In this document: positions 2,290 through 21,851 of the stretch, piece after piece
Position numbering within the stretch: position 1 is the stretch's first letter
How the letters are laid out: each line of letters begins with the position of its first letter
Source of the DNA: a virus
DNA: 25,518 nt
Reading direction: 5' to 3' (one strand)
Virus record (IMG/VR): IMGVR_UViG_3300025009_000355
Span: 1-25,518 of that record
Translations under genes and position numbers: made by a program
The notes under the pieces: model-generated
What the model was told of the DNA's origin: nothing
The model's input: only the letters and a program-made list of their open reading frames with translations
Database searches by the model: none

Positions 2290-2958
2290 ATGACTACTTT
2301 TAGTGAATTAAAAAGTAAAGCTGATGTTCTTGTTGCTGATCCTTCTTTGACTGATTATTTAGGGGACTTTATTAATCAAGGAGTTTCTGAAATTGCTGGC
2401 GGAATGCTTTCGTTATTAGATGGAATTGAGAATCCAATACCGAATGCACTTACGCCGCCGTTGCCTGAATTATTTACTATAGGTACTGTAACAACTTCAA
2501 CGACTGCTGCTTTTGTAGCTATGCCAACTAATTTTCATCGAGACTTGCAATTAGTAGTTTCACCTACTGGAAGTGAGATTGATATAGCACATTCGTTTAT
2601 TGAATTTACAGAGACTTATCCTTTGCTGAATAAGTCAGGAAGAATTTCTGAATCTATTGAACATGGAAGAAAATTATATTATCAAGGTATTCCTACAAGT
2701 GCTGAGACATTAACATTACATTATTATAGAAAACCCGTTGATATGGTTCTTGATGCTGATGTTCCTGATGGCATTCCTTCACATTTACATATTTCTTTGT
2801 TGGTGAACTTTGCAGCTTGGAAAGCTTATGAGCATATTGAAGATGGGCTTGAAGGTGAAACACCAAATACTATTAAATTTAAAAAGCTTTTTCTTGAAGC
2901 AATGAGAACATTTGAATTAACACTTCCATTTTATTCTCGTGGATTCATGCTTAAATAA
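2290..2958 (+). CDS. probable phage adaptor / head-tail connector protein
   Basis: A 222-residue protein starting with MTTFSELKSKADVLVADPSLTDYLGDFINQGVSEIAGGM, a helical opening typical of phage adaptor proteins that dock beneath the portal ring. It continues with a beta-rich middle (FVAMPTNFHRDLQLVVSP, TLHYYRKPVDMV) and helices at the C-terminus (LLVNFAAWKAYEHIEDG). The SLTDYLGDFINQG...P.NF....LY..G....LHYYRKP pattern matches what is usually seen in that family. AAGGAATTTT before ATG 2290 is a good ribosome site. Its position before the fibre genes fits a connector. The assignment rests on overall pattern, so it is moderate. Confidence 0.6.
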   Translation: MTTFSELKSKADVLVADPSLTDYLGDFINQGVSEIAGGMLSLLDGIENPIPNALTPPLPELFTIGTVTTSTTAAFVAMPTNFHRDLQLVVSPTGSEIDIAHSFIEFTETYPLLNKSGRISESIEHGRKLYYQGIPTSAETLTLHYYRKPVDMVLDADVPDGIPSHLHISLLVNFAAWKAYEHIEDGLEGETPNTIKFKKLFLEAMRTFELTLPFYSRGFMLK

Positions 2959-2977: not shown

Positions 2978-3172
2978 ATGGCATTGGAAGAAGGAAAAAG
3001 AGCAAAGTTGAAACAACCGCCTGTTGAAGGAATTGTAGTTGATGTGCAGTACAACAAGCAGGAGCGATGCCTTGAGCATTGCCTCGAATGGACCACGGAT
3101 GTTAATAATGATGGAGTGCCAGAAACTCATAGGCGCTGGTTTCTTGAATCTGAATTGGAAGAGGTGATGTGA
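2978..3172 (+). CDS. small hypothetical protein (64 aa)
   Basis: The frame is open from 2939, but ATG 2978 lies after ACAGAGGTATACT and beyond the stop of the previous gene, so it is the likely start. The 64-residue product starts MALEEGKRAKLKQPPVEG, then has a strand-rich middle (IVVDVQYNKQERCLEHCLEW) and a segment NNDGVPETHRRWFLESELEE that reads like a short beta domain with an acidic end. Its stop overlaps the next start (TGATG), so the two are probably translated together. No family is recognised. Position suggests a minor virion or head-completion protein. Confidence 0.6.
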   Translation: MALEEGKRAKLKQPPVEGIVVDVQYNKQERCLEHCLEWTTDVNNDGVPETHRRWFLESELEEVM

Positions 3173-3876
3173 TGGAAGAAATTAGAACTGAATTTTCACA
3201 TGGTCTCTCAGTTCAGGGTGCGAATATTGGCAGAGGTGTTGAAGCACTAGAACAGTCTAAAGCAATTGGTAGGTATGATGTTGAATGTATTGGCCCGGTT
3301 GAAGAATTTCGAGCACAGTACGTGTTGCTTTGTGATAAGATTCTCTCTTTCAAGCAGATGGGCAAGGTCAGACGATTCTTGCAAAGGATGGATATTGCCA
3401 AGACGCTCTCCGACTTTGCTGCAGTTCCGATGGAGGCCAAGTGGACTGAGGCATTTGATAATCTTGTTACTACTGCTGGCAAGAATGATATGCTGGATAA
3501 GTATCTAGCTGGTTCATCTTATACTGCCGCTTGGTATATTGGACTTATCGGATCGACAAGTTATACAACTGGTGCTGCGGTCACTAATACGATGGCCTCG
3601 CATGGAGGTTGGGCTGAGGATGTTGAATATTCTCAGGCAGCTCGGCCGACTACAGCGTGGAGTGCAGCAGCAGCTGGAAGTAAAGCTCTTTCTGCGGCTT
3701 GTGTTTTTTCAATTAATGGTGATGGCACAACGATTAAAGGTTGTTTTCTTAACTCTGTAGCTACTAAGTCTGGTACCACTGGCACTTTGTTCTCGGCTGG
3801 ATTATTCACTGGCGGCGACAAGGTTCTCGCCAACGGCGACACGCTGAACGTCAGTTATACCGCCACCTTGACTTAA
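3172..3876 (+). CDS. probable virion structural protein with C-terminal beta-rich module
   Basis: A 234-residue protein. ATG 3172 overlaps the previous stop and follows GAAGAGGTG; a GTG one codon earlier is possible. Residues 1-80 are helical and charged (EEFRAQYVLLCDKILSFKQM). From about residue 88, AFDNLVTTAGKNDMLDKYLAG introduces a module rich in Ala, Gly, Ser and Thr that contains AAWYIGLIG, DTLNVSYTATLT and alternating strands. Modules of this style occur in small phage structural proteins, sometimes alone, so this may be a fusion. GC content rises near the 3' end, where the GC-rich segment begins. The receptor or capsid site is unknown. The call as a structural protein rests on composition and neighbours. 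Confidence 0.55.
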   Translation: MEEIRTEFSHGLSVQGANIGRGVEALEQSKAIGRYDVECIGPVEEFRAQYVLLCDKILSFKQMGKVRRFLQRMDIAKTLSDFAAVPMEAKWTEAFDNLVTTAGKNDMLDKYLAGSSYTAAWYIGLIGSTSYTTGAAVTNTMASHGGWAEDVEYSQAARPTTAWSAAAAGSKALSAACVFSINGDGTTIKGCFLNSVATKSGTTGTLFSAGLFTGGDKVLANGDTLNVSYTATLT

Positions 3877-7428: not shown

Positions 7429-7429
7429 T

Positions 7430-7771
7430 ATGGCAAATGAAAACGATATTAGGATGTATAGGGGTGATTCATACGATCTTACTTTTACGATTACTGATAG
7501 TGATACAGCTCTTCCTGTATCTCTTAATGGTGCAACATTGAAGATGACTGTTACAACAATTAAAGACCCACCTGATGCTACTACCAAACTATTCGATATG
7601 ACTGGTACTATTAATGCAGACCCAACAACTGGGATAGTAGTATTCAAGCCAACTTCAGTGAATACTGCGGCTATTGGAAATTATTTTTATGATATTCAAT
7701 TGACAAGTGGAACGGATGTAAGGACTGTTCAAAAGGCAAAATTTGATATAGTTCAGGACAATACGAAATGA
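7430..7771 (+). CDS. Ig-like protein resembling the N-terminal domain of baseplate BppU
   Basis: The frame is open from 7373, but ATG 7430 follows AAAGGGAGAATGAT and lies just after the fibre stop, giving a 113-residue protein. The opening NDIRMYRGDSYDLTFTITDS and then NGATLKMTVTT, FDMTGTIN and FYDIQLTSGTDVRTVQKAKF are the strands of the small Ig-like domain seen at the start of BppU-type baseplate proteins and as a stand-alone protein in many phages. The stop overlaps the next start (ATGA). It probably joins the fibre or hub to the tail. The family resemblance is good; the exact partner is unknown. Confidence 0.7.
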   Translation: MANENDIRMYRGDSYDLTFTITDSDTALPVSLNGATLKMTVTTIKDPPDATTKLFDMTGTINADPTTGIVVFKPTSVNTAAIGNYFYDIQLTSGTDVRTVQKAKFDIVQDNTK

Positions 7772-9153
7772 TTATAAAATTGTTTTCTGGAACTACTGGA
7801 TGGAACAATATTGCTGATCCAACTAGGCTTAAGATTGACTTTGAAACTGGTATAGTCGAATTGGCAGAGGCTCTTGATGTAGATATAGATGATAATGGGC
7901 GAATATCCAGAAGATTAGGACAAGTCAGAATTGCTACAGGTAGTTATCATTCTATATTTTATGAGGGAGTTGATTGCTTTGTTGTTATTGAGCTAGCAAG
8001 TGAAGCAGCAATTTACAAAGTCAATACTGACAATACTCTGGTTGGAGTTCGATCTGGATTGACTCAAGGATTGAGAATGGGTTGGTGTCAGACTAAGCTT
8101 GGCCTTTATTACAGCAATGGTGTACAGAGTGGTCGCATTGTAGCTGGAGTTTCTTATACCTGGGTTGCAACTACTTATGTAGGACCTCCAACTACTAGGA
8201 CATTTGGAACACCTCCACTTGGCACTCGTCTTGCTTTGTTTGCCACTAGTATGTGTGTAGTTAATGGTTCCATTGTTAACTATTCTGAGCCATTAGGATA
8301 TGGTTTATTTGATAATGCGCGATCAAGATTGCGGTTTGGTAGTGATGTAAAGATGTTTAAGCCCATTGATGGTGGGGTATGGGCATCTGATAGCAAGCGA
8401 ACTTATTTTCTTGAGGGCTCAAATATTAAAGAACTCATCAGGCATCCACGTCTTGAATGTCCTGCACACGAATACTCAGAAGCCATAGGATATATCAATG
8501 GTGCAGACTTTGGACTTTCACCAGATGTAGGAGAGTGTGCAGCATGGTCGTGCAATGATGGACTGTGTATAGGCACACCACAGGGGCAGTTGATTGTAGT
8601 TACTAAGGACAAACTCAATTATCAGGCTGGAACTAGGGGTGCAAGTGTTATTTTAGGTAGTACAGTTATCAATACAATTGATGATTCAGTTTGCATCAGA
8701 ACCAATCTTCGTGGAGCAGCATCTAGTAAGTATCAGAATTATGGATTTAACTCGATGGTTAAGTTTAATGGTGGCTTGTATGGTGCAAGGAGTGATGGAC
8801 TTTTCCAGCTTGCCAGCGGAAGTACTGATAACACTGCACTGATTGCTTCTACATTTACTTTGCCTACTACTGACTTAGGTTCACAAAATAACAAGCACAT
8901 TCGTTTCTGGTACATGGGGGTAAAAACTGATGGCAAAATACAACTTGACTTGACAGCAGAAGGTAAGACGACTAGTACTAAATCATTCAGGATTTCACCT
9001 CCAAGGAATGTACACCAAGTTGTTAGGACACCAATAGGGCGTAACTTGTATGGAAGATATTGGACTCCGAAGATATCAAATGTTCTTGGAAGTGATTTTT
9101 CTATAGATACAAATGCAGTATTACCAATTATTAAATCAAGTGGAATTTCATAG
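7768..9153 (+). CDS. probable tail hub/nozzle protein, beta-propeller-like
   Basis: A 461-residue protein. ATG 7768 overlaps the previous stop as ATGA, with CAGGAC nine bases upstream. Its opening states NIADPTRLKIDFETGIVELAEALDVDIDDNGRISRR, a layout typical of podovirus proteins that form a propeller-shaped nozzle or DNA-stabilising hub (P22 gp10-like). Repeated strand pairs follow, such as YHSIFYEGVDCFVVIE, LGLYYSNGVQSGRIVA, GVWASDSKRTYFLEG and GLCIGTPQGQLIVVT. No enzyme motif or membrane segment is visible. It lies between the Ig-like protein and a helical rod protein, a position that fits a tail component. The assignment to a particular hub family is by resemblance of the N-terminal pattern. 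Confidence 0.55.
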   Translation: MIIKLFSGTTGWNNIADPTRLKIDFETGIVELAEALDVDIDDNGRISRRLGQVRIATGSYHSIFYEGVDCFVVIELASEAAIYKVNTDNTLVGVRSGLTQGLRMGWCQTKLGLYYSNGVQSGRIVAGVSYTWVATTYVGPPTTRTFGTPPLGTRLALFATSMCVVNGSIVNYSEPLGYGLFDNARSRLRFGSDVKMFKPIDGGVWASDSKRTYFLEGSNIKELIRHPRLECPAHEYSEAIGYINGADFGLSPDVGECAAWSCNDGLCIGTPQGQLIVVTKDKLNYQAGTRGASVILGSTVINTIDDSVCIRTNLRGAASSKYQNYGFNSMVKFNGGLYGARSDGLFQLASGSTDNTALIASTFTLPTTDLGSQNNKHIRFWYMGVKTDGKIQLDLTAEGKTTSTKSFRISPPRNVHQVVRTPIGRNLYGRYWTPKISNVLGSDFSIDTNAVLPIIKSSGIS

Positions 9154-9162
9154 GAGATAGTT

Positions 9163-10614
9163 ATGGCAGATTTTGTATCATCCGCAGGAGTAGTACTGCC
9201 TGTTGCAACAGTTACTCCAAACCTTCCAGATATTCATGTCCCTGATCCGCCTATCATAATTGGTGGTACACGTACTTTAGTTGAAACAAAACTGACTTCG
9301 ACCATGCAACTGGCCGATGACATGATGGTCAGGCTGGTCGGACTTGATGGAACAAGCGGTTATCTTGGAACACTTAACTCATTGATTACCACTTATTCGG
9401 AACCAGTTCTTGATCCACTTTCTGTTACCCTGACAACAACTGCGGTAACTATTCCAGATCGTCCATTGCCTACTGGGCTTGCTTCATTGATTACTGATTT
9501 TGGTACATTTAATACAGCCGCGCCGACTATGGCAGCAATGCCGGCCATTGACACGACGGCTCTGACTCCAGGCACTGCTCCAGTTGCACCTGATGCAAGT
9601 ATCACATGGTCTGAGACTGCGCTTGCTACTTCTGTTTATACACCATTGTTGGCGAAAATCCTTGCCACTATGGCAGATGATTCCACAGGGCTAGATCCGT
9701 TGGTTGAGCAGGCTATTTATGATAGAGCCATTGCAAGAAACCTGACTACTAATAATAAGATGCAAACCGAGGTCGAGACTTATTTCTCGGCCCGTGGTTG
9801 GGATGAACCACAGGGTGCACTTGAGGGAAGACTTCTCGAAGTATCTGCTGAGATTGCTAGAAACGAAACTGATGTTACTGAAAAGATAATGATCGAGCGC
9901 GCTGATCTGGCACAGAAAAATGCTCAGTTCATCATCCAACAAGCAACTGAATTAGAAAAATTAATTCGTGCTACCAGGGATGGAGAATCACAGCGAGCAC
10001 TTGATTATTCTAAGGTTTCTGCAGAGATTGTTATTCAGTTATATTCAGAAAGTGTCAAAGGTTATGTTGCTACTCTTGAAGCTAAGAAAGCATATATACA
10101 GGCACAAGTTGAAGTTCTGCGTGGAGTTATAGAAAGTAACAAGGGCTTGCTTGATGTGTATAAAGCACAATCTGAAGTATTCAAGATTGGTGTTGAGGCT
10201 AAGGCTAGTATTAATGATGCAATTATCAAAGGCTTTGAGGCTGAGATAACTGGTTATGAAGCTGAAACTAAAGCACTTACTGCTAGCCAAATGGCTCTTG
10301 TTGAAGATAACAAAGCAAAGATCGAAAAGGCTGATCTTGAATTACGTCTGATGATTGCCCAGATTGATGCTGCAATTCGAGCCTATATAGGCGAGTCTTC
10401 TTTGAAGGAAAAAGTCAGTAATGACTTAGCTCAGATTGCTGCACAGTCTGTAGCTTCTGCATTGAATGCAGTCAATGTTTCTGCTTCAGTCGGTGCGACT
10501 GAAAATGAAAGTCGATCTGAGGATTATAATAAGAGTGAATCAATTACTGAACAACATAGCTTCCATTCTAGCATCTCTGAATCACACGATTATACACATA
10601 ATCCAACAGCATGA
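9163..10614 (+). CDS. helical rod-like virion protein
   Basis: A 483-residue protein; TAGGAGATAGTT precedes ATG 9163. Residues 1-175 are rich in Thr, Pro and Val with repeated TxxP stretches and are probably extended or weakly folded. Residues about 178-440 are almost continuous amphipathic helix (ELEKLIRATRDGESQRALDY, VEVLRGVIESNKGLLDVYKA), suited to a coiled-coil rod. The last 40 residues are Ser/Glu/His-rich (SESITEQHSFHSSISESHDY). Such a layout suits a tail shaft or internal virion protein. No family is recognised. The stop overlaps the next start (ATGA), so the two are likely co-translated. It is too short for a tape measure of a long tail. Confidence 0.6.
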   Translation: MADFVSSAGVVLPVATVTPNLPDIHVPDPPIIIGGTRTLVETKLTSTMQLADDMMVRLVGLDGTSGYLGTLNSLITTYSEPVLDPLSVTLTTTAVTIPDRPLPTGLASLITDFGTFNTAAPTMAAMPAIDTTALTPGTAPVAPDASITWSETALATSVYTPLLAKILATMADDSTGLDPLVEQAIYDRAIARNLTTNNKMQTEVETYFSARGWDEPQGALEGRLLEVSAEIARNETDVTEKIMIERADLAQKNAQFIIQQATELEKLIRATRDGESQRALDYSKVSAEIVIQLYSESVKGYVATLEAKKAYIQAQVEVLRGVIESNKGLLDVYKAQSEVFKIGVEAKASINDAIIKGFEAEITGYEAETKALTASQMALVEDNKAKIEKADLELRLMIAQIDAAIRAYIGESSLKEKVSNDLAQIAAQSVASALNAVNVSASVGATENESRSEDYNKSESITEQHSFHSSISESHDYTHNPTA

Positions 10615-12521
10615 TAGTTCCTATTAAAATAACATATACCGGAGATACTTTTACTGGTAAGAATTTTGCTAAGCAAGCTAGAGTTCAAGTTGGCATGCTG
10701 AAGGATGATATGGCTCGACTTGGGCTTAAACAAGGCAGACGTTTTGTTCCTGTTGCTCCAGGTGTAACTATTGAATCGCGCTCAGTATTTGGATTTGATG
10801 AAGCAAGGGTTCATGTTGCACCTTTAAATAGAAAGAAACTTGGCAAACACTTACCCATCGAAGAAAGGTATGAATGGTACTGGTATGCCTTAGCAGTTTC
10901 TACAGACACTATACAGACTCTTATTTCAGGTGGTGGGCTATCAGATATTGATGTTGATACAATGGGCAACGTAATTGTAGTTGGTTACACTAGAACAAGA
11001 GATTTTGCAGATGCTTCGTCAGACTTATCAAATGAAGCATACGTTCAATATTATGATAATGATGGATGGTTTCAGCGTCGTCGAGTATTAGAAGGTGGAC
11101 TGTTAAGTGGAGTGAATCGGAATGAATCTGGTACTGGAGTTGCAATTGATCCTACAGTTCCGACAGAACTTGATACTGATTATGGTGGAGTTTATGTCAC
11201 AGCAGATATTTATAAGTTGCGTGATGATAATTGCTATGATATGAGTCTGATCAAGTATGCTTCAGATGGCGTAACGATTAAATGGAAGAAACGATTTTCT
11301 CTTGGAGCGACTGGAATTGATGACCTATTCAGTTGGGGAGTTGATGCTGATGCCACAGGAAATGCTGTAGTGATTGGCAGGCATGATGCCTACGATATCA
11401 CAGAGCCGTATTACAGTGATCCTTATGCATTGCTGTATAATGCTGGGTACATTGCTTCACTGAGATATGATGGTGTTCTTAATTGGGCGCTGCAGCTTGG
11501 AGATAGCTTACTTGATGAAAATGGACACCCAACAGTAATGAACTCCGTAAGTCCTTATGATGTTGCTGTCGATTCAGCAGGAGACATTGTTGTCGGATGT
11601 GGTATCAGGGAAGTGGAGACAAGTTTTGTGCATCCAATGGGACTGCTCACCAAACTAAATAACGAAGGCACAGTTCAATGGCACCGAGTTCTTGAAGGCA
11701 GGTTCAAGCAGGCGAACGGGCTTTATGGCTGGTATGGCGTCGGCACCAGTATGAGCGGACTGAATATCAGGGGCTGCGCGATCGACAGTAATGGAGATAT
11801 TTACTGTATTTCAATGACAAAGATTGAGATTGCTACTGATAGTGGTTGGTGGCATTTTCATCTTTCTAAAGTATCTTCTGCTGGCGCATTACAGTGGCAG
11901 CGGTTTGCTGAGGTGCAATATCACGACGATGCTGATGCAATCCTTTGTGTTACTCAAGTCGATGTTGCTCCTGATGGAGTGTATATTATTTTTCCCAGTT
12001 TCCCTAATGGAACTGATGGATGGGGAGCATATATAATTAAGTTTCAAAAGTCTGATTCTGTTAATCCATTATCTCCACAGGCAGGAGATGTACTTTGGAA
12101 AAGGCATCTGGCCCTTGAACTTACACAAGCACAAGTTGCAGGAAATACAGGAGTTATTCCAAGAGCAATTCGAACAGTAGGTTCTGATATTTATTTTGCA
12201 GGTTCGATTATTGCTGATAAGTCACCACTTACAGCAAAACTTCCTGGTAGTGGAGGATTTATTGGCAATCACATGGGGTTAGTATTTACCAATCCTGCTT
12301 TGACTATATATGATAATCAAGCAAGTATTCCTGTACATCAAGATCCTGGTGAGGGCGAAGGAACACCAGGGTACGAGTTCTTCTGGCACAGTGATGTAAC
12401 AGTCAACACAACTACCGGGGCGGCAACCATCTTAACACCAAGCGAAGGTGATTACGATTCGCCACTCTGGACGCAAACGAATAAAATTATCAAGAAAACA
12501 ATTTATACTCAAGGAGAATAA
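10611..12521 (+). CDS. seven-repeat beta-propeller virion protein
   Basis: A 636-residue protein. ATG 10611 overlaps the upstream stop; no clear ribosome site is seen, so translational coupling is likely. After a 90-residue N-terminal part, seven blade-like repeats can be picked out with the theme i.vD..Gdi.v.G: near residue 110 (IDVDTMGNVIVVG), 176, 242 (VDADATGNAVVIG), 316 (VAVDSAGDIVVGCG), 385 (CAIDSNGDIYCIS), 447 (VDVAPDGVYIIFP) and 518 (RTVGSDIYFAGS). Spacing is about 65 residues. This is the SBBP-type propeller pattern. The last 55 residues (from GYEFFWHSD) are a separate end with higher GC. Probably a tail or receptor-contact protein. The fold is well supported, the role inferred. Confidence 0.65.
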   Translation: MIVPIKITYTGDTFTGKNFAKQARVQVGMLKDDMARLGLKQGRRFVPVAPGVTIESRSVFGFDEARVHVAPLNRKKLGKHLPIEERYEWYWYALAVSTDTIQTLISGGGLSDIDVDTMGNVIVVGYTRTRDFADASSDLSNEAYVQYYDNDGWFQRRRVLEGGLLSGVNRNESGTGVAIDPTVPTELDTDYGGVYVTADIYKLRDDNCYDMSLIKYASDGVTIKWKKRFSLGATGIDDLFSWGVDADATGNAVVIGRHDAYDITEPYYSDPYALLYNAGYIASLRYDGVLNWALQLGDSLLDENGHPTVMNSVSPYDVAVDSAGDIVVGCGIREVETSFVHPMGLLTKLNNEGTVQWHRVLEGRFKQANGLYGWYGVGTSMSGLNIRGCAIDSNGDIYCISMTKIEIATDSGWWHFHLSKVSSAGALQWQRFAEVQYHDDADAILCVTQVDVAPDGVYIIFPSFPNGTDGWGAYIIKFQKSDSVNPLSPQAGDVLWKRHLALELTQAQVAGNTGVIPRAIRTVGSDIYFAGSIIADKSPLTAKLPGSGGFIGNHMGLVFTNPALTIYDNQASIPVHQDPGEGEGTPGYEFFWHSDVTVNTTTGAATILTPSEGDYDSPLWTQTNKIIKKTIYTQGE

Positions 12522-12523
12522 GT

Positions 12524-13597
12524 ATGCTTAATGATTTTCAAGCAGCAGCAGCTGAAGAAGAAAAGAAAAAAAGAAAGTTGTCTCTTCTGCCTACTACAGA
12601 TGATGCATTTACAGGTGAAGCTTGGAATGTTCCTGTTCCTATAAAGAAACAAGCACCAATGACTCCAGGCGATCCGATGAATGAATCATTTTATGGTGGA
12701 AGTAATCCATTAAGAGATATTAATTCTCGTCCTGATAGAATAGGGCAAGGAACTAGAGTAGTTGAAAGAAATATGTTACCTTCAGTAAATATTGAAAGCC
12801 CTAAGATTAATGAAATTCCTAATGCACAAAGAAATGCAGAGTTAGGCGAAATGACTGTAGCAAAAAATGGAAATACAACTACTTATGATATTGGAGGAAA
12901 TACTCTTTCATTTGAAGGAGAAAAACCTACTAGAGCATTAAACAGGATGGCTGGAGCAAACCCAGGACAAAGATCAAACATGGATGTATCATTTGATTCT
13001 AGTGTAGCACCTGAAGCAAGAAAAAGATTCTTAGAAAATCCTGTTGCACCAACTGGTCAGATGGCTCAATATGAAAAGTACATGAACACTCCGCGAGGGC
13101 AGAATTTTGGCGTTACTAAGATTGACAATACTCCACCACCTCCTATGGGCTGGAGAACTCGTAAAGATCTTATGACGCAAGAATTAGCTAATCAACAATC
13201 AAGAGAGAATAATTTAGCTAATCTTGAATCGGCAACTCTTGATAGAACACAACGAGCTAATATAGATACAGATAAAAATCGCATAGATGAAATGGGTGTT
13301 ATAGCAGAAAATAAATTACGTGATATTCAAGGTCAAGCATTGCAAAATCCTCCAGTTAAAGAAACTGAATTAAAGCCATTAGTAATAAAAGAATATGATG
13401 CTTTAGGTAATGTTATTGGTGAAAGGATTAAACTTCCTGGTCCTGATAGTACATATGGAGAAGCAAACCAAACAACATTTATAACTCCAAAGCCAGCTAC
13501 TACAGAAAAGCTATTAAAAATGCGCGCTTCTAAAGATCCTAATTTTGCTGCTGCTGAAGTTGAGTATAAAGCAAGGTTTGGAAACCTTCCGTATTAA
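12524..13597 (+). CDS. disordered virion-associated protein, probably internal
   Basis: A 357-residue protein; AAGGAGAATAAGT before ATG 12524 is a strong site. It opens with an Ala/Glu/Lys stretch (FQAAAAEEEKKKRKLSLLP). Most of the rest is rich in Asn, Pro, Gln, Thr and Glu with few hydrophobics, so it is probably disordered. One short beta-like patch reads MTVAKNGNTTTYDIGGNTLSF (about residues 109-128). A helical stretch (QELANQQSRENNLANLESAT) follows in the last third. No family is recognised. Its place directly before the giant ejected-type protein suggests a packaged internal protein or assembly partner. The call as a real gene is firm; function is unknown. Confidence 0.6.
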   Translation: MLNDFQAAAAEEEKKKRKLSLLPTTDDAFTGEAWNVPVPIKKQAPMTPGDPMNESFYGGSNPLRDINSRPDRIGQGTRVVERNMLPSVNIESPKINEIPNAQRNAELGEMTVAKNGNTTTYDIGGNTLSFEGEKPTRALNRMAGANPGQRSNMDVSFDSSVAPEARKRFLENPVAPTGQMAQYEKYMNTPRGQNFGVTKIDNTPPPPMGWRTRKDLMTQELANQQSRENNLANLESATLDRTQRANIDTDKNRIDEMGVIAENKLRDIQGQALQNPPVKETELKPLVIKEYDALGNVIGERIKLPGPDSTYGEANQTTFITPKPATTEKLLKMRASKDPNFAAAEVEYKARFGNLPY

Positions 13598-13622
13598 TAA
13601 ATTAAAACTATAGGAATATAAA

Positions 13623-16600
13623 ATGGCTGGATTTTTTGATGATACAGAAGAAACTACTTCGCCAGTAGTAAAAAGTTTTTTTGATGATACAGAAGAAATT
13701 AATACTCCTACTCCAACTGATTCTGATTTTATACCTGGAGTAAAAAGAGGACTTCAGAATCTTCAGGCATCTGCATATGGTGCTACTGCTCTTGCAGGAT
13801 CAGGATTAAAAAAGCTTGGAATTGATTCTGCTGGCCAGAATTTGCAAGACTTTGGCATGGAGGGATATAACAGGAATATTGAAGAAGCCAAACAGTATCC
13901 TAAGAAACATTCTTTTAAAGATGTATATACTGGTAAAGCAGGAATTGGTGGTGCTGTTGACTGGGCTCAAGGAACTCTAGGTGAACTTGTACCAAGTATG
14001 GCTGAAGCAGCAGTTGGTGCGATTGCTGGATCTGTTGTTGCTCCTGGTGCAGGTACTGTTGCCGGAGGTTTGGCAGGTAGAACAATTCTTAAGAAAGGAA
14101 TTGATGAAGCGGTAAAGCAGTCTATTAAACGTGGAATTGGTGACTTGACAGAAGCTCAGGTAAGGAAACAACTTACTGGACAAGCACTGAAGAAGTTTGG
14201 TGGTAAAGTTGGTATTGCTGGATCAGTAATGCCGTTAGAATCTGGTGGAATGTACGCAGAGTTGTTGCAAAATAAAGGCATTGATGCTCCTGAGACTGCA
14301 TTACTGTTTGGTGCTTTGGCAACATCATTAGAATTTGCTGGTGGTAATAGTAAGTTAGTTGATACTTTTGTTGATGCCTTGAGTAAGGGGTCTACTGGAA
14401 CTATTAAAAAGTCTGCAAAGGAACTGCTTACAAATATTCCTCAAGAAGCTCTTCAGGAAGGTGGCCAGGAGCTGCTTAGTGTTCTTAATACTGTAGCAAA
14501 TACAGATGAGAAGTTACTGACTGCTGATAATGTTGAACGAATTATTGAAAGTATGGCTGCTGGAGCTATTGGTGGTGGTGCTGGTGCAGCAGTTAATGCA
14601 GGCTTCTCCGCACAAGCAAAAGATCCTGGGCCTGGAAAGACTGATGCAGAGATTGAGCTTGACAGGCGAGCAGCAAATATTCTCAATTTGAAAGAAGATG
14701 AACTTGGTAAGAGTATTCAAACTTTAAATGCTACTCTTAACTTGAATAAAGAAATTCTTGATGATCCTTATAAACTTGATCAGAAGGCAAGAGAGTTAAA
14801 TGTTGATCCGGCTGAATTAATTAGAAAGACTGTTGAAGATAATAAAAATAATCAAAGCCTTCTTGATCGGATTAATTCAGGAATCCAGAAGAAAGAAGAA
14901 CTGGCTAAGAAAGAATATGAAGCTCTTTCTCCTGAAGAGAAGCAAGTAAAAGAAATTGAAAATAAGTTAGCTGAGAAGAGAATTGCTGATGCTCAGAAAA
15001 TTAATGATGATCTTGATACAATTAATAAGAGAGAAGAAATAGCTCTTAAGCAATATAAGGATGAAACTGATCCGGATAAAAAGGCATCAATTGCTGATCG
15101 GATTTTTAATCTGAAGAAGGAGAAAAATACTCTTCTTGATCGACAGCTTCAGCAGAAAACTAATCAGGTTAATGAATTCGAAGAGCCGAAGAAGGCTGAT
15201 GAAATTCGTCAAGAGAAAGAGAACTTCTATAACCAGCTTTGGCTCGGTGGAGTTAATAAAGATGCAACTGAGTCTGCAAAAGTCTTTGGTGAAAAATCTA
15301 CTGAGCAGCAAGACATACTAGATAGACTTTCAACACAGATTGCAAATACTCAAAGTCAGCAAAAGAAACAAGAATTACAGAAAGTTTATGATGGATTGTT
15401 TCAGACTTTTGAACGTGACGCAAGTGAATCTGCAGAAACTATTGCTAACGCAGACACTAGTCAGTTTGATCAACTTGTTAAAGCCAAAGATCAGGAACGC
15501 CTTAACAGTATTCTTGAATCTATAGTAGTTGAACCTGATCCTCAAGCTAGGCAAACACTGTATGAGAAGATGTTCATGCAGCCTGGAGTTAAAGACGCTG
15601 CTGATTCTGCTGAGGTATTTGCTGCTCAAGGTGAAGACGCCATTGCTAACCAACGAAAGCAAGAACTTCAAAAAGTAATGTCTTCGATTACTCAAGAGAG
15701 TGATCCGGCTGTAAGGCAGAAGCTTTATAATCAAATGTTTCTTCAGCCTGGAGTTAAGAATGCTCAGGAGTCAGCTGAAGTATTTTTAACACAGAAATTT
15801 ACTGAAAGAGAAAAATCTGTTATAGAAGATTATTGGCAAGAGGTTAAGAAAGAACTTAATCTTCGCAGTGAAAAAATGACTCCTGGAACGGAAGCATTTA
15901 TGCGAAAGAAGTTCTTTGAGACTCAACTTGCTAATATTGAGAAAGATGTTCAACAAGAAGCTAAGACTCAAGATGCTGCGAAACAAAATGTTGTTCCGTC
16001 TTTAGCTGAACAGAATAAACGCCAGGTAAGGTTTCGTCAAATTGCTGAAAGCCTCGGAGATATTCCATCAGTAAATAGCCAGGCAGTTGAAACTGAGGTT
16101 CCTAGAAACTTGCCCGGAGGTTTGCAGAGTGGGTTCACTAATGAACAACAAGTAGCAGGTACTCCACAGTTTCAAGTAAACGAAAATCAAGAAACTTTAA
16201 ATAAAGTAAATCTTGATGACATTAAGAAGACTTTTCCAAATCAAGTAATTAATCAAAATGATGATGGTTCAGTCTCTGTTCAGTTCAAGAATGGTAAAGG
16301 CGTAAAGATTAATAGCATTCAAAATGCAGGTGAAGGCTTCATCAAGTTAGCTATTGAAACTGGGCAGATGTCCAAAGATAAAGTAATTTTTGGTATTACA
16401 ACGGGGAATGAAATTCTTCTTGATGAAAACTTTGCAGACAATAAGACTCTTTGGCATGAGAACAAGCATGTTCTTGACAACCTGGGATTGATTACAGAAG
16501 CAGATGATAGCGCGCTTAATAAGGAGTTTAATAAACTGAGAAAGGCAGGCAAGCTTGACTTTGCTCTGAGTACTTATAATGACCCAAAGAAGAGTGAAAA

Positions 16601-19600
16601 TGAGAATAAGAAGCAGCGGATGGTTGAGAATCGTGCGAACATGTTTGCTCAGATTATGGTCAACAGAGCTGAATATCGCAACACTGCGTTTGGTAAAGTG
16701 ATTCAGAGGGTAATGGATTTCTTTCAGCAGCTGCTAAGTTTTGGTAAGCAAACAGTCTCAGGGTTGGCTCGTGAAGTAGAAAGTGGAAAGCTTTATGAGC
16801 GTCAAGTTAATGGCCAGACTGTTCAAGTTACTGTTCCCCAGGCTGAAGAAGTAGCTAGTAAGTGGTACTCTGCACTTGAGAATGCAGTTGCAGGATTTAA
16901 TCAGAAGCAAGCAACACCTGATCAATGGAAAGGAATGATTAAGAACTTTCCAGGTATAAAGCAGGATGAACTTGATTGGGTTGGTGTGAATGATTGGCTT
17001 GATAAGCAGGAAGGAAAAGTCAGTCAGGCAGCTTTGCTGAAATTTGTTCAGGATAATAATGTTCAGCTTGAAGAAGTTGTTAAAGGTGATAAAACATATC
17101 TCTATAATTCTGTTGATGATTGGGATAATGCTATTGATAATGCACAGACAAATGAAGAACAGCATAGATTAGAAGTCTTAGAAGCTGAATGGGCATCAAG
17201 AAATTTGATTGAAAGAACGGATACTAGACATTCAAGCTATCAACTTCCAGGGGGGAAAAATTATAAAGAATTAATACTTACTCTACCACATGAATCAAAG
17301 CAACAAACATATCAAGAATGGGTAGCAGATGGTATGCAAGGAGAATGGAATAGTAAAGGAATTACTTCTGATAAAAAGATTTATACTCACGAAGTTCATT
17401 GGCCAGGTATTGCAAATCCTTTAGCTCATATCAGATTCAATGAACGAACTGATGCAGATGGAAATAAAGTTCTTTTCCTTGAAGAGATTCAAAGTGACTG
17501 GCATCAGGAAGGGAGAGAAATAGGTTACAGAGAACTCTTAGATAAACGATTTAAAGAATTAGATGCAAAAATATTAGCAGGAGAAAAACTTACTGAAGAA
17601 GAAAAGAAATGGTATCAAGATAATGAGATGCTGATGGGTGTTCCAAATGCTCCATTCAAGAACTCTACTCAGTGGTCTCTGCTTGCAATGAAGCGAATGG
17701 TTAGGTATGCTGCTGAGAATGGTTTTGATAAAATTGCATGGACTACTGGACAGCAACAGTTTGATCGTTATGCTCAGGGCACTGAAGAGGAACAAGCTAA
17801 AAGACTTCATGGAATGCAAGAGTTTTATGATAAAATACTCCCGAATACTTTTAATGCAGAGTTCAATAAGAACAAGTGGGGAAACGCAAGAGTTGAAGTA
17901 ACTAACATTCCTCAAGGAGAATTCAATCCATTAACTAAGAAGTTTTATAAAGATGGGTATGAAGCTGAGGCACTTCAGCAGCTTTCTATTCCAATCACGA
18001 ACCGCATGAAATCTAAGGCACTGCGTGAAGGTATGCCTATGTTCGAGGTTCGTGAAGCTCCAACTCAGAAGATTAGCGATGATGTTTACCACCAAATGTT
18101 CAGCGAACAAAATAGTTTGGTTCGTACAATCGGCCAGATGCTTCGTATGCGCGGGCATGAAATTAAGCAACTCATTGACAAGGGATTAGGGTCTATTTCA
18201 ACTAGGCTTAAAAACGTAGATCCTATGCTCAGAGCAGAGATTAGAAACCTAGACTTTCGGACAGCTCAAAAGATTGTAAATGCATTACGAATCGCTCATC
18301 CACTCCTGGAGAAGACTAAACAAATGAGTCTGCAAGACAAATTTGTTTGGGATGCAGCTAGGAGAAACTCAGACGAAGTTAAGATAAAAGAGATTGCAGA
18401 AAAATACAACATGATTGCTGATCAAGAAAAGCTGCGGTCAGTCTTAGATCAGATTAGGCAGGATGCAATTGATGTTGGTTACGATGTAGGATTTATTGAA
18501 GAATACTGGCCTCGCATAATCAAGGATCAAGAAGGCTTCTTGCAGGCAACTAAAGGAATTTCTCAACGACCAGTTATTACTGATGCAATCAAAGTTTATG
18601 CAGACAAACTTGGAATGACTGTTGAGAAGTTTGAACTTGCATATCCTGAACAAGCAGCAGATATTGCAAGCAATACAATACTTGGCAGGAACCTTGGTAT
18701 TGGTGGGCCAGGCAATATTCAAGCTAGGCAATATGAAACTGTTCCGCCTGAGTTGAATAAGTTCTACATGGATAGTGATGCAGCATTGATGCAATACATC
18801 TATAGTATGACCAAGAAAATTGAAGCACGGAGATTCTTTGGTAAGGTTCCAGAGAGAATAGCAAGCCTGAAAACTGAAAAGAAACGAAAGCAGGTAATGC
18901 TTACAGAATATGAAAAGGCTAATAATACTGCACGCATAGAAGATGTTTCAGGCGACTTGATTAGAATAGAGCAAGAATTGGATAAGTACAAACTGCAAAG
19001 AGACTATACTGAAAATATTGGTACATATATTAATGACTTGCGAATGTCTGGTCGAATCCAAGCAGATGATGAAAAAGTAGTTAGGGATATTCTTGATGCA
19101 AGGTTCCACGAGCACGGGGCTACAGGAATAGTTAATGCCTACAAAAATATGTCATACATCGACGTGATGGGTTCGCCTATATCTGCGCTGACTCAGATTG
19201 GAGATTTGGCTTGGGCGATGTATGTAGGTAAGGTATGGACACCACGTGGCCTTGCTGATACGGTTAAGAATGTTGGTAAAGCCATAACTAAGAAGTCTGA
19301 AATAACTAAGGAAGACTTAGGAATTGAAAGGATTGCTCAGGAATTTGCAGACGGAACTACGTTGGGGAATGCAGTTAGTTGGGTATTCAAAAAAGTGCAG
19401 CTTGAAAGAATAGATTCGATCGGCAAGGAGACATTAATTAACAATGCATTTAGCAACTACAAAGCTATGGCTAGCACAGAAGCTGGAAGACAAGCATTGT
19501 TGAAGCAAATCAAGCCAATCTTTGGAACACAGTCTGATAGTGTAATAAATGATTTGCTTGCCGGAACACCAACAGACAACGTAAAGATGTTACTGTACCA

Positions 19601-20438
19601 TAGATTGTTAGACTTCCAGCCTGTAGCGCTTTCTGAAATGTCAGAGCAATATCTCAAGAGTGGAAATGGGCGAGTGTTTTATATGCTCAAGACATACACA
19701 CTTAAACAGTTTGATGTTTTCAGAAATGAAGCATGGCACAAAATTAAGACTGGCGAACGGGATCAGGTTATTGAAGGAATTGGTAACATGATTAAGCTGG
19801 TGAGTTTACTTACACTTGCTAATGCTGGAGCGGATGAGTTGAAAGATTTGCTGTTGGGTAAAGAAACAAAGTTTGAAGATCACGTGATTGAGAATTTTCT
19901 TACGATGGGAGGTGCATCAAAGTATGTGAGGATGCAGACTACTCGGGAAGGTTTGGGATCTGGATTGATCGGGCAGATTTTGCCTCCGTTCAGGTTTGTA
20001 AACTCCATCAGTAAGGATCTTAATCAATTGTATGGATCTTACATTACGGGGGATACAATTGATTATGATCACGCCAGAATTGTAGAGTCCATTCCGATTG
20101 GTGGAAAGATTTATTATTGGCACTACGGCAGAGGTGAAGATTACAAAAAGAGTAGCAATGAACAAGAGTTTGGTAAGGTCAGTAAGGAAGTAGACATCTT
20201 CAAGAGGCAGCTTGAAAATTCTGAAGACAAACGAACTTTCTTGAATTCAAACCTGGATGGCTTTAAGCAAATGAAGTTACATGAAAATTTTCAGAGTGCC
20301 CTCAATCGGAACCAGGCAGTAATTAATAAGCTGAAAAAGATTGACCAGACAACAAATGTACGGGAAAGGCTTGGACAGTTGCAACAGCAACGAGAGATGA
20401 TATTGAAAAGATATTTTGAAGTATCAGAAACCTTGTAA
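13623..20438 (+). CDS. giant multidomain polyvalent protein with zincin motif, probably ejected with DNA
   Basis: A 2271-residue protein; TATAGGAATATAAA precedes ATG 13623. In order: a duplicated FFDDTEE peptide (residues 4-25); two Gly/Ala-rich segments (about 130-155 and 311-330) able to insert in membranes; a charged coiled region (420-536); four degenerate 53-58-residue helical repeats (539-726); a zincin-like HENKH (H945, E946, H949) with candidate third ligand E1002 in VENRANMFAQ; a domain at about 1170-1450 with FLEEIQSDWHQEGREIGY and FDKIAWTTGQQQFDRY, known from large polyvalent proteins of phages and plasmids; and a long helical C-terminal half. Proteins of this kind are often packaged and injected with DNA to aid entry or protect it. 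That role is inferred; the domains are seen. It ends just before a terminator. Confidence 0.8.
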   Translation: MAGFFDDTEETTSPVVKSFFDDTEEINTPTPTDSDFIPGVKRGLQNLQASAYGATALAGSGLKKLGIDSAGQNLQDFGMEGYNRNIEEAKQYPKKHSFKDVYTGKAGIGGAVDWAQGTLGELVPSMAEAAVGAIAGSVVAPGAGTVAGGLAGRTILKKGIDEAVKQSIKRGIGDLTEAQVRKQLTGQALKKFGGKVGIAGSVMPLESGGMYAELLQNKGIDAPETALLFGALATSLEFAGGNSKLVDTFVDALSKGSTGTIKKSAKELLTNIPQEALQEGGQELLSVLNTVANTDEKLLTADNVERIIESMAAGAIGGGAGAAVNAGFSAQAKDPGPGKTDAEIELDRRAANILNLKEDELGKSIQTLNATLNLNKEILDDPYKLDQKARELNVDPAELIRKTVEDNKNNQSLLDRINSGIQKKEELAKKEYEALSPEEKQVKEIENKLAEKRIADAQKINDDLDTINKREEIALKQYKDETDPDKKASIADRIFNLKKEKNTLLDRQLQQKTNQVNEFEEPKKADEIRQEKENFYNQLWLGGVNKDATESAKVFGEKSTEQQDILDRLSTQIANTQSQQKKQELQKVYDGLFQTFERDASESAETIANADTSQFDQLVKAKDQERLNSILESIVVEPDPQARQTLYEKMFMQPGVKDAADSAEVFAAQGEDAIANQRKQELQKVMSSITQESDPAVRQKLYNQMFLQPGVKNAQESAEVFLTQKFTEREKSVIEDYWQEVKKELNLRSEKMTPGTEAFMRKKFFETQLANIEKDVQQEAKTQDAAKQNVVPSLAEQNKRQVRFRQIAESLGDIPSVNSQAVETEVPRNLPGGLQSGFTNEQQVAGTPQFQVNENQETLNKVNLDDIKKTFPNQVINQNDDGSVSVQFKNGKGVKINSIQNAGEGFIKLAIETGQMSKDKVIFGITTGNEILLDENFADNKTLWHENKHVLDNLGLITEADDSALNKEFNKLRKAGKLDFALSTYNDPKKSENENKKQRMVENRANMFAQIMVNRAEYRNTAFGKVIQRVMDFFQQLLSFGKQTVSGLAREVESGKLYERQVNGQTVQVTVPQAEEVASKWYSALENAVAGFNQKQATPDQWKGMIKNFPGIKQDELDWVGVNDWLDKQEGKVSQAALLKFVQDNNVQLEEVVKGDKTYLYNSVDDWDNAIDNAQTNEEQHRLEVLEAEWASRNLIERTDTRHSSYQLPGGKNYKELILTLPHESKQQTYQEWVADGMQGEWNSKGITSDKKIYTHEVHWPGIANPLAHIRFNERTDADGNKVLFLEEIQSDWHQEGREIGYRELLDKRFKELDAKILAGEKLTEEEKKWYQDNEMLMGVPNAPFKNSTQWSLLAMKRMVRYAAENGFDKIAWTTGQQQFDRYAQGTEEEQAKRLHGMQEFYDKILPNTFNAEFNKNKWGNARVEVTNIPQGEFNPLTKKFYKDGYEAEALQQLSIPITNRMKSKALREGMPMFEVREAPTQKISDDVYHQMFSEQNSLVRTIGQMLRMRGHEIKQLIDKGLGSISTRLKNVDPMLRAEIRNLDFRTAQKIVNALRIAHPLLEKTKQMSLQDKFVWDAARRNSDEVKIKEIAEKYNMIADQEKLRSVLDQIRQDAIDVGYDVGFIEEYWPRIIKDQEGFLQATKGISQRPVITDAIKVYADKLGMTVEKFELAYPEQAADIASNTILGRNLGIGGPGNIQARQYETVPPELNKFYMDSDAALMQYIYSMTKKIEARRFFGKVPERIASLKTEKKRKQVMLTEYEKANNTARIEDVSGDLIRIEQELDKYKLQRDYTENIGTYINDLRMSGRIQADDEKVVRDILDARFHEHGATGIVNAYKNMSYIDVMGSPISALTQIGDLAWAMYVGKVWTPRGLADTVKNVGKAITKKSEITKEDLGIERIAQEFADGTTLGNAVSWVFKKVQLERIDSIGKETLINNAFSNYKAMASTEAGRQALLKQIKPIFGTQSDSVINDLLAGTPTDNVKMLLYHRLLDFQPVALSEMSEQYLKSGNGRVFYMLKTYTLKQFDVFRNEAWHKIKTGERDQVIEGIGNMIKLVSLLTLANAGADELKDLLLGKETKFEDHVIENFLTMGGASKYVRMQTTREGLGSGLIGQILPPFRFVNSISKDLNQLYGSYITGDTIDYDHARIVESIPIGGKIYYWHYGRGEDYKKSSNEQEFGKVSKEVDIFKRQLENSEDKRTFLNSNLDGFKQMKLHENFQSALNRNQAVINKLKKIDQTTNVRERLGQLQQQREMILKRYFEVSETL
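13632..13698 (+). repeat. duplicated FFDDTEE peptide at the N-terminus of the giant protein
   Basis: TTTTTTGATGATACAGAAG occurs twice, with the GATGATACAG core at 13638 and 13683, 45 bases (15 codons) apart. Both encode FFDDTEE. The copies are nearly perfect at DNA level, so the duplication is recent or under selection. The linker between them is TTSPVVKS. Confidence 0.75.
15237..15800 (+). repeat. four degenerate 53-58-aa repeats in the giant protein
   Basis: Landmark residues recur at 15237, 15396, 15570 and 15735, spaced 53, 58 and 55 codons. The last two copies are closest: RQTLYEKMFMQPGVKDAADS against RQKLYNQMFLQPGVKNAQES, each preceded by E.DP and followed by AEVF. Earlier copies (FYNQLWLGGVNKDATESAKV and VYDGLFQTFERDASESAETI) keep the aromatic/hydrophobic core and the S/A-E-x-A tail. 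The pattern is helical. Confidence 0.75.
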
Positions 20439-20492: not shown

Positions 20493-20729
20493 TTATCCAA
20501 CTAGATGCTTTTCAAATCTGGCTATCTGTTTCTTAGTCAGCCCATATACATATAACGCTCCATTTCCATACTCTCCTGGAGTACCGAGCAGTCCGTATCC
20601 AGGTGCTCTTAGAACATACTTTGCACCTCCATTAAATCTAGATACACTGAAGTCTATGCCAGCAGGTATCCCCTTATAAAACTGATGATCCTGCCCAAAT
20701 CTTATGATGTTACCTGCTTTGAATTTCAT
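20493..20729 (-). CDS. small hypothetical protein coupled to thyX (78 aa)
   Basis: The frame is open further upstream, but ATG at 20729 overlaps the thyX stop as ATGA and follows GGGAGGAATTCTT, an excellent ribosome site, so a 78-residue product is preferred. The sequence is compact: MKFKAGNIIRFGQDHQFYKG, strands rich in Gly and Tyr (GGAKYVLRAPGYGLLGTPG, GALYVYGLTK), then a short basic helix (KKQIARFEKHL). It reads like a small beta-barrel with a C-terminal helix. No family is recognised. It is the last gene of the right operon, just before the terminator. Coupling to thyX suggests equal expression and perhaps a linked job, but nothing in the sequence proves that. Confidence 0.65.
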   Translation of the reverse strand: MKFKAGNIIRFGQDHQFYKGIPAGIDFSVSRFNGGAKYVLRAPGYGLLGTPGEYGNGALYVYGLTKKQIARFEKHLVG

Positions 20730-21592
20730 AAGAATTCCTCCCAAGGCATCATATTCATTACTCGCTGCATATCTGGATGGGCTGACTTTGCTGTCCGTAG
20801 CTTCCTGATATGTGCCCACTCAGCTGCATCTGCTGTGACTACGATCTCGGTCTTCAGGGCATTAGGCAGGACGGTTCTAGCTTGTTGGGGTTTGAGTTCT
20901 CCTAAATTAAGCATCCGATTATATGCAAGTTCGGCATGTTCACAACTAGATACAAAGTCACTTCTGGCATAATTGGTCCAGTCATCAAAATCAGCTGGCT
21001 CAATAAACCCCATAGCCTTGCCACCATAGTTCACATACCTGGTGCTTTCCTGAGCAAAAGAGCAAGGTCTATGTCGCACCAGTTCGTGACTGACTCCGCG
21101 ATCACAGATGAATTTTGCTGAGTAGCGGTGAAGTTCTTTGGGGATTTCGTCGTGAGGACAGATTTCCCAAGATGAATGTATCTCTACCATACTTTGATCA
21201 AACAGCTTTCCATATATTTTTACAAATGGAACAAGCACTGCAGCATATCTAATTTCCATAGTTATTTGCGCCCATGCTGTTAAGCTACCACCCACATAGA
21301 TAAAGTCTTTCCATACCTTGACATTAATATATTTTCCTAACTGTTCTGTCATCAATGCAATATATGTAGGAGGAAAACTGTTGATGGCTCGCACTACAAA
21401 ATTCGAGTGCTCAACCATAGCCAGATGCCCAGCCTTGATCAGCTTCTTAACAAATCCTTCTGCACTATCTTCAGTGATCTTGTCTTCTGACTTATAGCAA
21501 GTTCTGCCTGCCATCTCGATGAACTTAAGTGCTGCATTATATTCAGTCGGTACTGCTCCGAAAAACTCAACGCTTGGTTTGATTATTTTCAT
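20726..21592 (-). CDS. thyX: flavin-dependent thymidylate synthase ThyX
   Basis: A 288-residue enzyme that methylates dUMP to dTMP using FAD, NADPH and methylenetetrahydrofolate. The family signature RHRxxSxxxxSxRY is complete: RHRPCSFAQESTRY at residues 173-186. Other fitting parts are ARTCYKSE near residue 33, the GHLAMVEHSNFVVRAI core and the C-terminal Arg/Gln-rich region (KPQQARTVLPNALKTEIVVT). Start: ATG 21592 is preferred, four bases after the upstream stop, with GGAG nine bases before; an in-frame ATG at 21613 would add seven residues and overlap the upstream gene. Phage ThyX enzymes supply thymidine nucleotides for replication, consistent with the helicase and exonuclease genes upstream in the same operon. 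All key motif residues are present. Confidence 0.95.
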   Translation of the reverse strand: MKIIKPSVEFFGAVPTEYNAALKFIEMAGRTCYKSEDKITEDSAEGFVKKLIKAGHLAMVEHSNFVVRAINSFPPTYIALMTEQLGKYINVKVWKDFIYVGGSLTAWAQITMEIRYAAVLVPFVKIYGKLFDQSMVEIHSSWEICPHDEIPKELHRYSAKFICDRGVSHELVRHRPCSFAQESTRYVNYGGKAMGFIEPADFDDWTNYARSDFVSSCEHAELAYNRMLNLGELKPQQARTVLPNALKTEIVVTADAAEWAHIRKLRTAKSAHPDMQRVMNMMPWEEFL

Positions 21593-21596
21593 AGCT

Positions 21597-21851
21597 TCAT
21601 TCTCCATCCTCATGATTTAAAGCTGCTATCAAATCATTATGCAAATCTTCTTTATAATCAATTATATCGTCTTTTTGGCTCTTCATTAAGTGCACTTTTA
21701 TATCAGCCAGAACTCGTATCTGAGCATAAAGTTGCTTAATCTTTTCATCAATAGCAATTATACTAGCTTCTGTTAGATCCTTAGTAAGGAACTCTCGAAG
21801 CAATGGAGCATTAATATTTGCTTGATCAAGTGTCTTCAGATGTGCTTTCAT
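21597..21851 (-). CDS. small hypothetical helical protein (84 aa)
   Basis: An 84-residue protein. ATG 21851 follows AAAGGAACTAATA. It overlaps the end of the upstream gene by 26 bases. The sequence is mostly helical (LLREFLTKDLTEASIIAIDE, KIKQLYAQIRVLADIKVHLM), followed by an acidic tail (ALNHEDGE). A helical hairpin or short coiled coil is likely. No family is recognised and no catalytic or DNA-binding motif is visible. The tight spacing to thyX points to operon membership. Gene call is supported by start, site and position. Confidence 0.65.
   Translation of the reverse strand: MKAHLKTLDQANINAPLLREFLTKDLTEASIIAIDEKIKQLYAQIRVLADIKVHLMKSQKDDIIDYKEDLHNDLIAALNHEDGE

Follow-up and report, generated by a model that had tools for sequence, protein, structure and literature searches.

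The giant open reading frame of the window, that is, the whole source fragment of 25,518 bases analyzed here, was found to encode a polyvalent protein in which two payload slots flank a zincin-like domain, and alignment of close relatives showed predicted enzyme modules to be swapped at these fixed positions. In its best reading, it represents an additional polyvalent ejection protein that includes an uncatalogued domain and whose relatives document the exchange of cargo unusually clearly. On balance, we favor the view that it is a late-expressed, virion-packaged ejection protein of a podovirus, the zincin of which would process its own chain to free the payload. Polyvalent proteins, the zincins within them, and their delivery are already established ideas.

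Overall architecture of the giant protein

The frame begins with ATG at 13623 and runs without interruption to the stop codon at 20436–20438. A 37,660-base contig encodes the identical protein (100%) at identical coordinates, and long intact homologues were recovered, comprising 39 full-length nonredundant relatives. In L047, the giant gene is present as two overlapping frames (9953–14956 and 14868–16652), which is either a genuine frameshift or an artefact of assembly. C-terminal relatives L289 (1762–4035) and L290 (7277–9637) lie on contigs assigned by binning to Candidatus Omnitrophota, which hints weakly at the host and may reflect wrong binning. The elements described in the first-pass annotation, namely HENKH, E1002, FLEEIQSDWHQ/WTTGQQQ, the repeats, and a helical C-terminus, were all located within the 2271-residue frame, as follows.

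13623..20438, + strand: giant polyvalent ejection-type protein, 2271 aa (intact ORF, homologues)
13623..14657, + strand: N-terminal Gly/Ala-rich module, type I (residues 1–345), with type II in its place in close relatives
13986..14102, + strand: Gly/Ala-rich stretch 1 (residues 122–160; composition, hydropathy)
14547..14612, + strand: Gly/Ala-rich stretch 2 (residues 309–330; under the hydropathy threshold used)
15225..15287, + strand: repeat 1 (residues 535–555; self-comparison)
15384..15446, + strand: repeat 2 (residues 588–608; weakest copy, placed by eye)
15558..15620, + strand: repeat 3 (residues 646–666; self-comparison)
15723..15785, + strand: repeat 4 (residues 701–721; self-comparison)
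16146..16205, + strand: payload slot 1 (residues ~842–861), empty here, with inserts of 125–1052 aa in relatives
16206..16805, + strand: zincin-like metallopeptidase domain (residues 862–1061; conservation, predicted fold)
16455..16469, + strand: HENKH (residues 945–949; motif, conservation)
16626..16628, + strand: E1002 (E of VENRANMF), candidate third zinc ligand (conservation, position in predicted fold)
16779..16790, + strand: ESGK (residues 1053–1056), with E1053 and G1055 invariant in 30/30 and the slot 2 junction next to it
16806..18020, + strand: payload slot 2 (residues 1062–1466), holding the cassette here, empty in some relatives, with an extra ART-PolyVal in L012
16863..17078, + strand: helical subdomain with KQDELDW (residues 1081–1152; alignment, model)
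17250..18020, + strand: GNAT-like core (residues 1210–1466; model, fold search)
17475..17507, + strand: FLEEIQSDWHQ (residues 1285–1295; motif, conservation)
17739..17759, + strand: WTTGQQQ (residues 1373–1379; motif, conservation)
18051..20435, + strand: all-helical C-terminal scaffold (residues 1477–2271), constant among relatives

The polyvalent character previously ascribed to the protein was borne out insofar as the chain appears to combine at least two disparate activities, the zincin and the GNAT-like cassette, as judged from motif conservation and predicted fold, with ART-PolyVal occurring in the sibling L012. It was not reflected in the published LPD/polyvalent Pfam models, none of which matched the protein, as is also the case for many members of the class; single-sequence scans against Pfam and PHROG returned no credible match.

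Conservation and predicted fold of the zincin-like domain

Residues H945, E946, H949, and E1002 showed no variation at any of the four positions across the aligned zincins (30/30), of which some are only 25–41% identical, such that an HExxH motif and a downstream Glu ligand were both conserved in every one. HExxH was present in all 39 full-length relatives, whereas its chance expectation in a chain of this composition is ~0.018. L207 and L222 lacked the HENKH domain and carried a HELTH (HExxH) site downstream of the cassette. The dN/dS ratio of the domain was 0.09–0.16, a sign of purifying selection. An AF2 model (mean pLDDT 83.3) placed strands, the HENKH helix (model residues 79–92), another helix, and the E1002 helix (131–158) in succession, and this predicted order agrees with that of zincins (β-sheet, HExxH helix, ligand helix). 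No zincin appeared among the 50 PDB fold matches listed, and a profile search of the domain against PDB sequences yielded nothing meaningful. The earlier proposal of E1002 as the third ligand was supported by its conservation and by its helix position in the model, and H945, H949, and E1002 are retained as a candidate metal site. A zincin duplication considered for L007, L009, and L013 was ruled out, as each chain contains one HENKH and its additional sequence consists of inserts of other kinds.

Characterization of the cassette in slot 2

The cassette unit (residues 1075–1476) is separated from the zincin by a linker with pLDDT below 50 (residues 1065–1075). One scan of viral contigs identified 123 stretches encoding it, often in chains of 2,500–5,400 aa, and it was additionally found in HTVC028P gp34 and phage ct7L0027. 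E1288, Q1290, S1291, D1292, and YAAENG (1362–1367) were invariant in 57/57 cassettes. The dN/dS ratio (0.35–0.57) exceeded that of the rest of the protein, a value that averages the conserved core and variable loops. Short-piece matches were also observed in two cyanophage genes (PP438410.1, 34253–35326; PP438424.1, 20386–21459) annotated as "lysin"; the label is possibly wrong and was not taken up, since short pieces alone match.

No credible Pfam model was found for the cassette using 67 relatives, and its profile matched nothing meaningful among PDB sequences. The DSSP order of the predicted model corresponded to GNAT β2-β3-β4-α3-β5-α4-β6-β7, with an insert between β4 and α3, and the majority of the top 50 PDB matches in Foldseek were of GNAT type, albeit weak (best E 0.023, low TM-scores). 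The acetyl-CoA loop Q/RxxGxG/A was not seen, the corresponding loop being PNAPF..QW..LAMKRM, and because this usual motif is absent, the cassette was classified as GNAT-like rather than GNAT. The model lends moderate support to a GNAT-like predicted fold. What had been described as a known FLEEIQSDWHQ/WTTGQQQ domain kept its motifs, lacked a Pfam model, and emerged as an exchangeable cassette.

Exchange of modules among relatives

Both slots vary around the zincin. In relatives such as L016, L018, and L020, slot 2 lacks the cassette and VESGKIYER joins AEALREGMPMF directly, and in L012, ART-PolyVal (1.2e-22) follows ESGKIYERQ, ahead of the cassette of that protein. Inserts of slot 1, named by eye without profile confirmation, were ParB-like (L195, L191), GNAT-like (L185), methyltransferase-like (L199), and ART-like (L212, L215). 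The 3423-aa relative L049 (9950–20218; also L212) carries a slot 1 insert of ~1052 aa, apparently made up of several ART-like units with YHGT and YHGS motifs.

When mapped onto a tree built from C-terminal DNA, the presence of the cassette changed ~8 times (6–8 in bootstraps; at least 3 changes forced by well-supported branches), a rough count because many branches of the tree are unresolved and recombination inside the C-terminus would inflate it; the count was no lower than with shuffled labels. The type of N-terminal module switched 5 times on the same tree. Two kinds of this module occur among close relatives, type I, as in this protein, and type II, as in L018, which shares 96% identity with the giant protein over the C-terminus.

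Repeats, Gly/Ala-rich stretches, and the C-terminal scaffold

The four repeats of ~21 aa, starting at 535, 588, 646, and 701, proved genuine on self-comparison: the best pair scored 106 and the first copy 47, the highest score among 50 shuffles being 40, and the second copy was the weakest. Both Gly/Ala-rich stretches that had been put forward as membrane-insertion candidates are present; a membrane-active role was not established, because only stretch 1 passed the mild hydropathy threshold (19-residue mean 1.59).

The long helical C-terminal half was confirmed at the level of prediction, its 795 residues being modeled as all-helical (mean pLDDT 68.5). With dN/dS of 0.04–0.06, this region is under the strongest constraint in the protein. 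Its predicted fold gave chance-level matches only against PDB, its profile found nothing meaningful among PDB sequences, and no credible model was found in NCBIfam. Comparison with the PLxRFG module of F116-type phages revealed weak similarity at a single common site, at which most real sequences outranked 560 shuffles (best E 0.0015); the hhalign probability was ~1%. An iterative search that seemed to join the two kinds of C-termini was rejected, since some of its rows included cassette residues, and with trimmed rows the similarity is suggestive only. The cassette was also observed in giants with PLxRFG-type C-termini (L084, L114, L119, L121, L123, L126), from which it appears to move between C-terminal scaffolds.

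Late-gene surroundings and probable packaging

The giant protein is encoded among late virion genes, in a + strand operon that also includes the following genes and is succeeded by a convergent block of ThyX, exonuclease, and DUF3987.

2290..2958, + strand: SU10-type adaptor (PF24175, E 3.2e-14)
3169..3876, + strand: H66 gp55 homologue (4.3e-9)
7768..9153, + strand: H66 gp54 homologue, head closure Hc3, MS-verified in H66 (1e-12; gp57 matched too)
9163..10614, + strand: H66 gp58 homologue (2.2e-15)

In H66, the giant gp60 is likewise the last late structural gene ahead of the lysis genes, several of the homologues preceding it, and its record notes that it was "verified by mass spectrometry as part of the virion". 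The gene order differs in that gp55 follows gp54 in H66, whereas the gp55 homologue precedes the gp54 homologue here. The type II N-terminal profile matched H66 gp60, a giant "PLxRFG" virion protein of the F116 group, at 2e-58, and phage 8P at 3e-56; type I had no direct match to either, its likeness to type II lying mainly in the distal part. Since only the type II N-terminus of relatives matches gp60, packaging is inferred through the mosaic. The giant protein is probably packaged in the virion and delivered with the DNA, as the first-pass annotation had proposed, and this claim is supported by gp60 homology, gene content, and gene order, though not for this very chain.

Two differences from the contig G003 (IMGVR_UViG_3300025009_000089) were observed in the surroundings. 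The tail-region genes at 3886–13597 are different or far diverged, while the flanking genes are 73–97% identical, as if a tail module had been exchanged. At the place equivalent to ThyX (20726–21613), G003 carries two different ORFs that match nothing in the window.

Comparison with known systems

H66 gp60 differs from the giant protein in its C-terminal module, which is only suggestively similar, in having a methyltransferase-like region and two HExxH sites of its own, and in the absence of the FLEEIQSDWHQ cassette. With the phage polyvalent proteins of Iyer et al. (PMC5512222), the giant protein shares disparate domains in one chain, a zincin-type MPTase, the late-gene context, and ART-PolyVal in a sibling; it differs in that it is matched by no LPD or other polyvalent Pfam model, in that the cassette lies outside Pfam, and in the within-population slot swapping around a constant zincin. 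T7 gp14/gp15/gp16 have the same proposed role, large helical parts, and a mosaic domain make-up (PMC8954989), but neither sequence nor fold matched, the giant protein is far larger, and no transglycosylase domain was found in it. HTVC028P gp34, a ~954-aa protein of a Pelagibacter phage, contains the cassette (profile E 1.1e-60) and belongs to a block in which internal virion proteins are annotated; the zincin and the C-terminus of the giant protein were both not found in it.

Proposed mechanism and alternatives

In the mechanism that we favor, a podovirus with late genes partly like those of Pseudomonas phages F116/H66 would pack the giant protein in its head, from which it would exit with the DNA. 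The delivery scaffold would be formed by the Gly-rich module at the N-terminus and the long helical region at the C-terminus, with the zincin and the payload slots between them. Slot 1 being empty, the GNAT-like domain of slot 2 would act on a host target, putatively by acyl transfer, and the zincin would cut its own chain near the adjacent flexible linkers, freeing the payload either while virions assemble or once the host has been entered. The first-pass annotation had the zincin acting on a substrate of the host or the virion; self-processing is judged the most likely role, because HExxH is constant while the payloads vary, because the zincin lies between the slots, and because the linker at 1065–1075 is of low confidence, as flexible stretches are. 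Such a self-processing role was proposed for MPTases of polyvalent proteins by Iyer et al. (PMC5512222), although N4 vRNAP, which is packaged uncut despite its MPTase domain (PMC5512222), counts against it.

The same uncut N4 protein speaks against a role of the zincin in maturing its own protein or neighboring head proteins during assembly, with only part of the chain packaged; P1 DdrB, for which such maturation is suggested and which is cut before packaging (PMC5512222), lends this somewhat unlikely alternative a precedent, and nothing here distinguishes the timings. Less probable still is a packaged protein whose zincin is an effector cleaving a host protein after delivery. Iyer et al. deemed this possible (PMC5512222), and one divergent relative weakly matches the toxin metallopeptidase PF15638 (E 0.007), but the retention of HExxH in 39/39 relatives while other enzymes vary, together with the exchangeable kind of zincin, resembles a housekeeping activity more than an effector. 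We consider it very improbable that the protein has a structural role alone, as an internal core or tape-like component, with the zincin and GNAT-like domains as inactive relics: the strong constraint on the helical C-terminus would suit such a role, whereas the invariant metal-site residues and dN/dS values well below 1 in both the zincin and the cassette argue against it.

Beyond self-processing, we tentatively propose, as a possibility that is still doubtful, that these phages retain one virion-delivered protease between two slots, by way of which a local phage population would rapidly swap injected effectors, including GNAT-like enzymes. The relatives constitute a natural series of near-identical phage delivery proteins differing in the enzyme carried, and therefore self-processing by the zincin, the part that enters, and the action of payloads versus host defence become testable by comparison. 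The cassette itself, despite lacking a Pfam model, is widespread in giant phage proteins. If the proposed mechanism is true, the family would provide a delivery protein with interchangeable cargo freed by its own protease, and the cassette would represent a new GNAT-like enzyme family.
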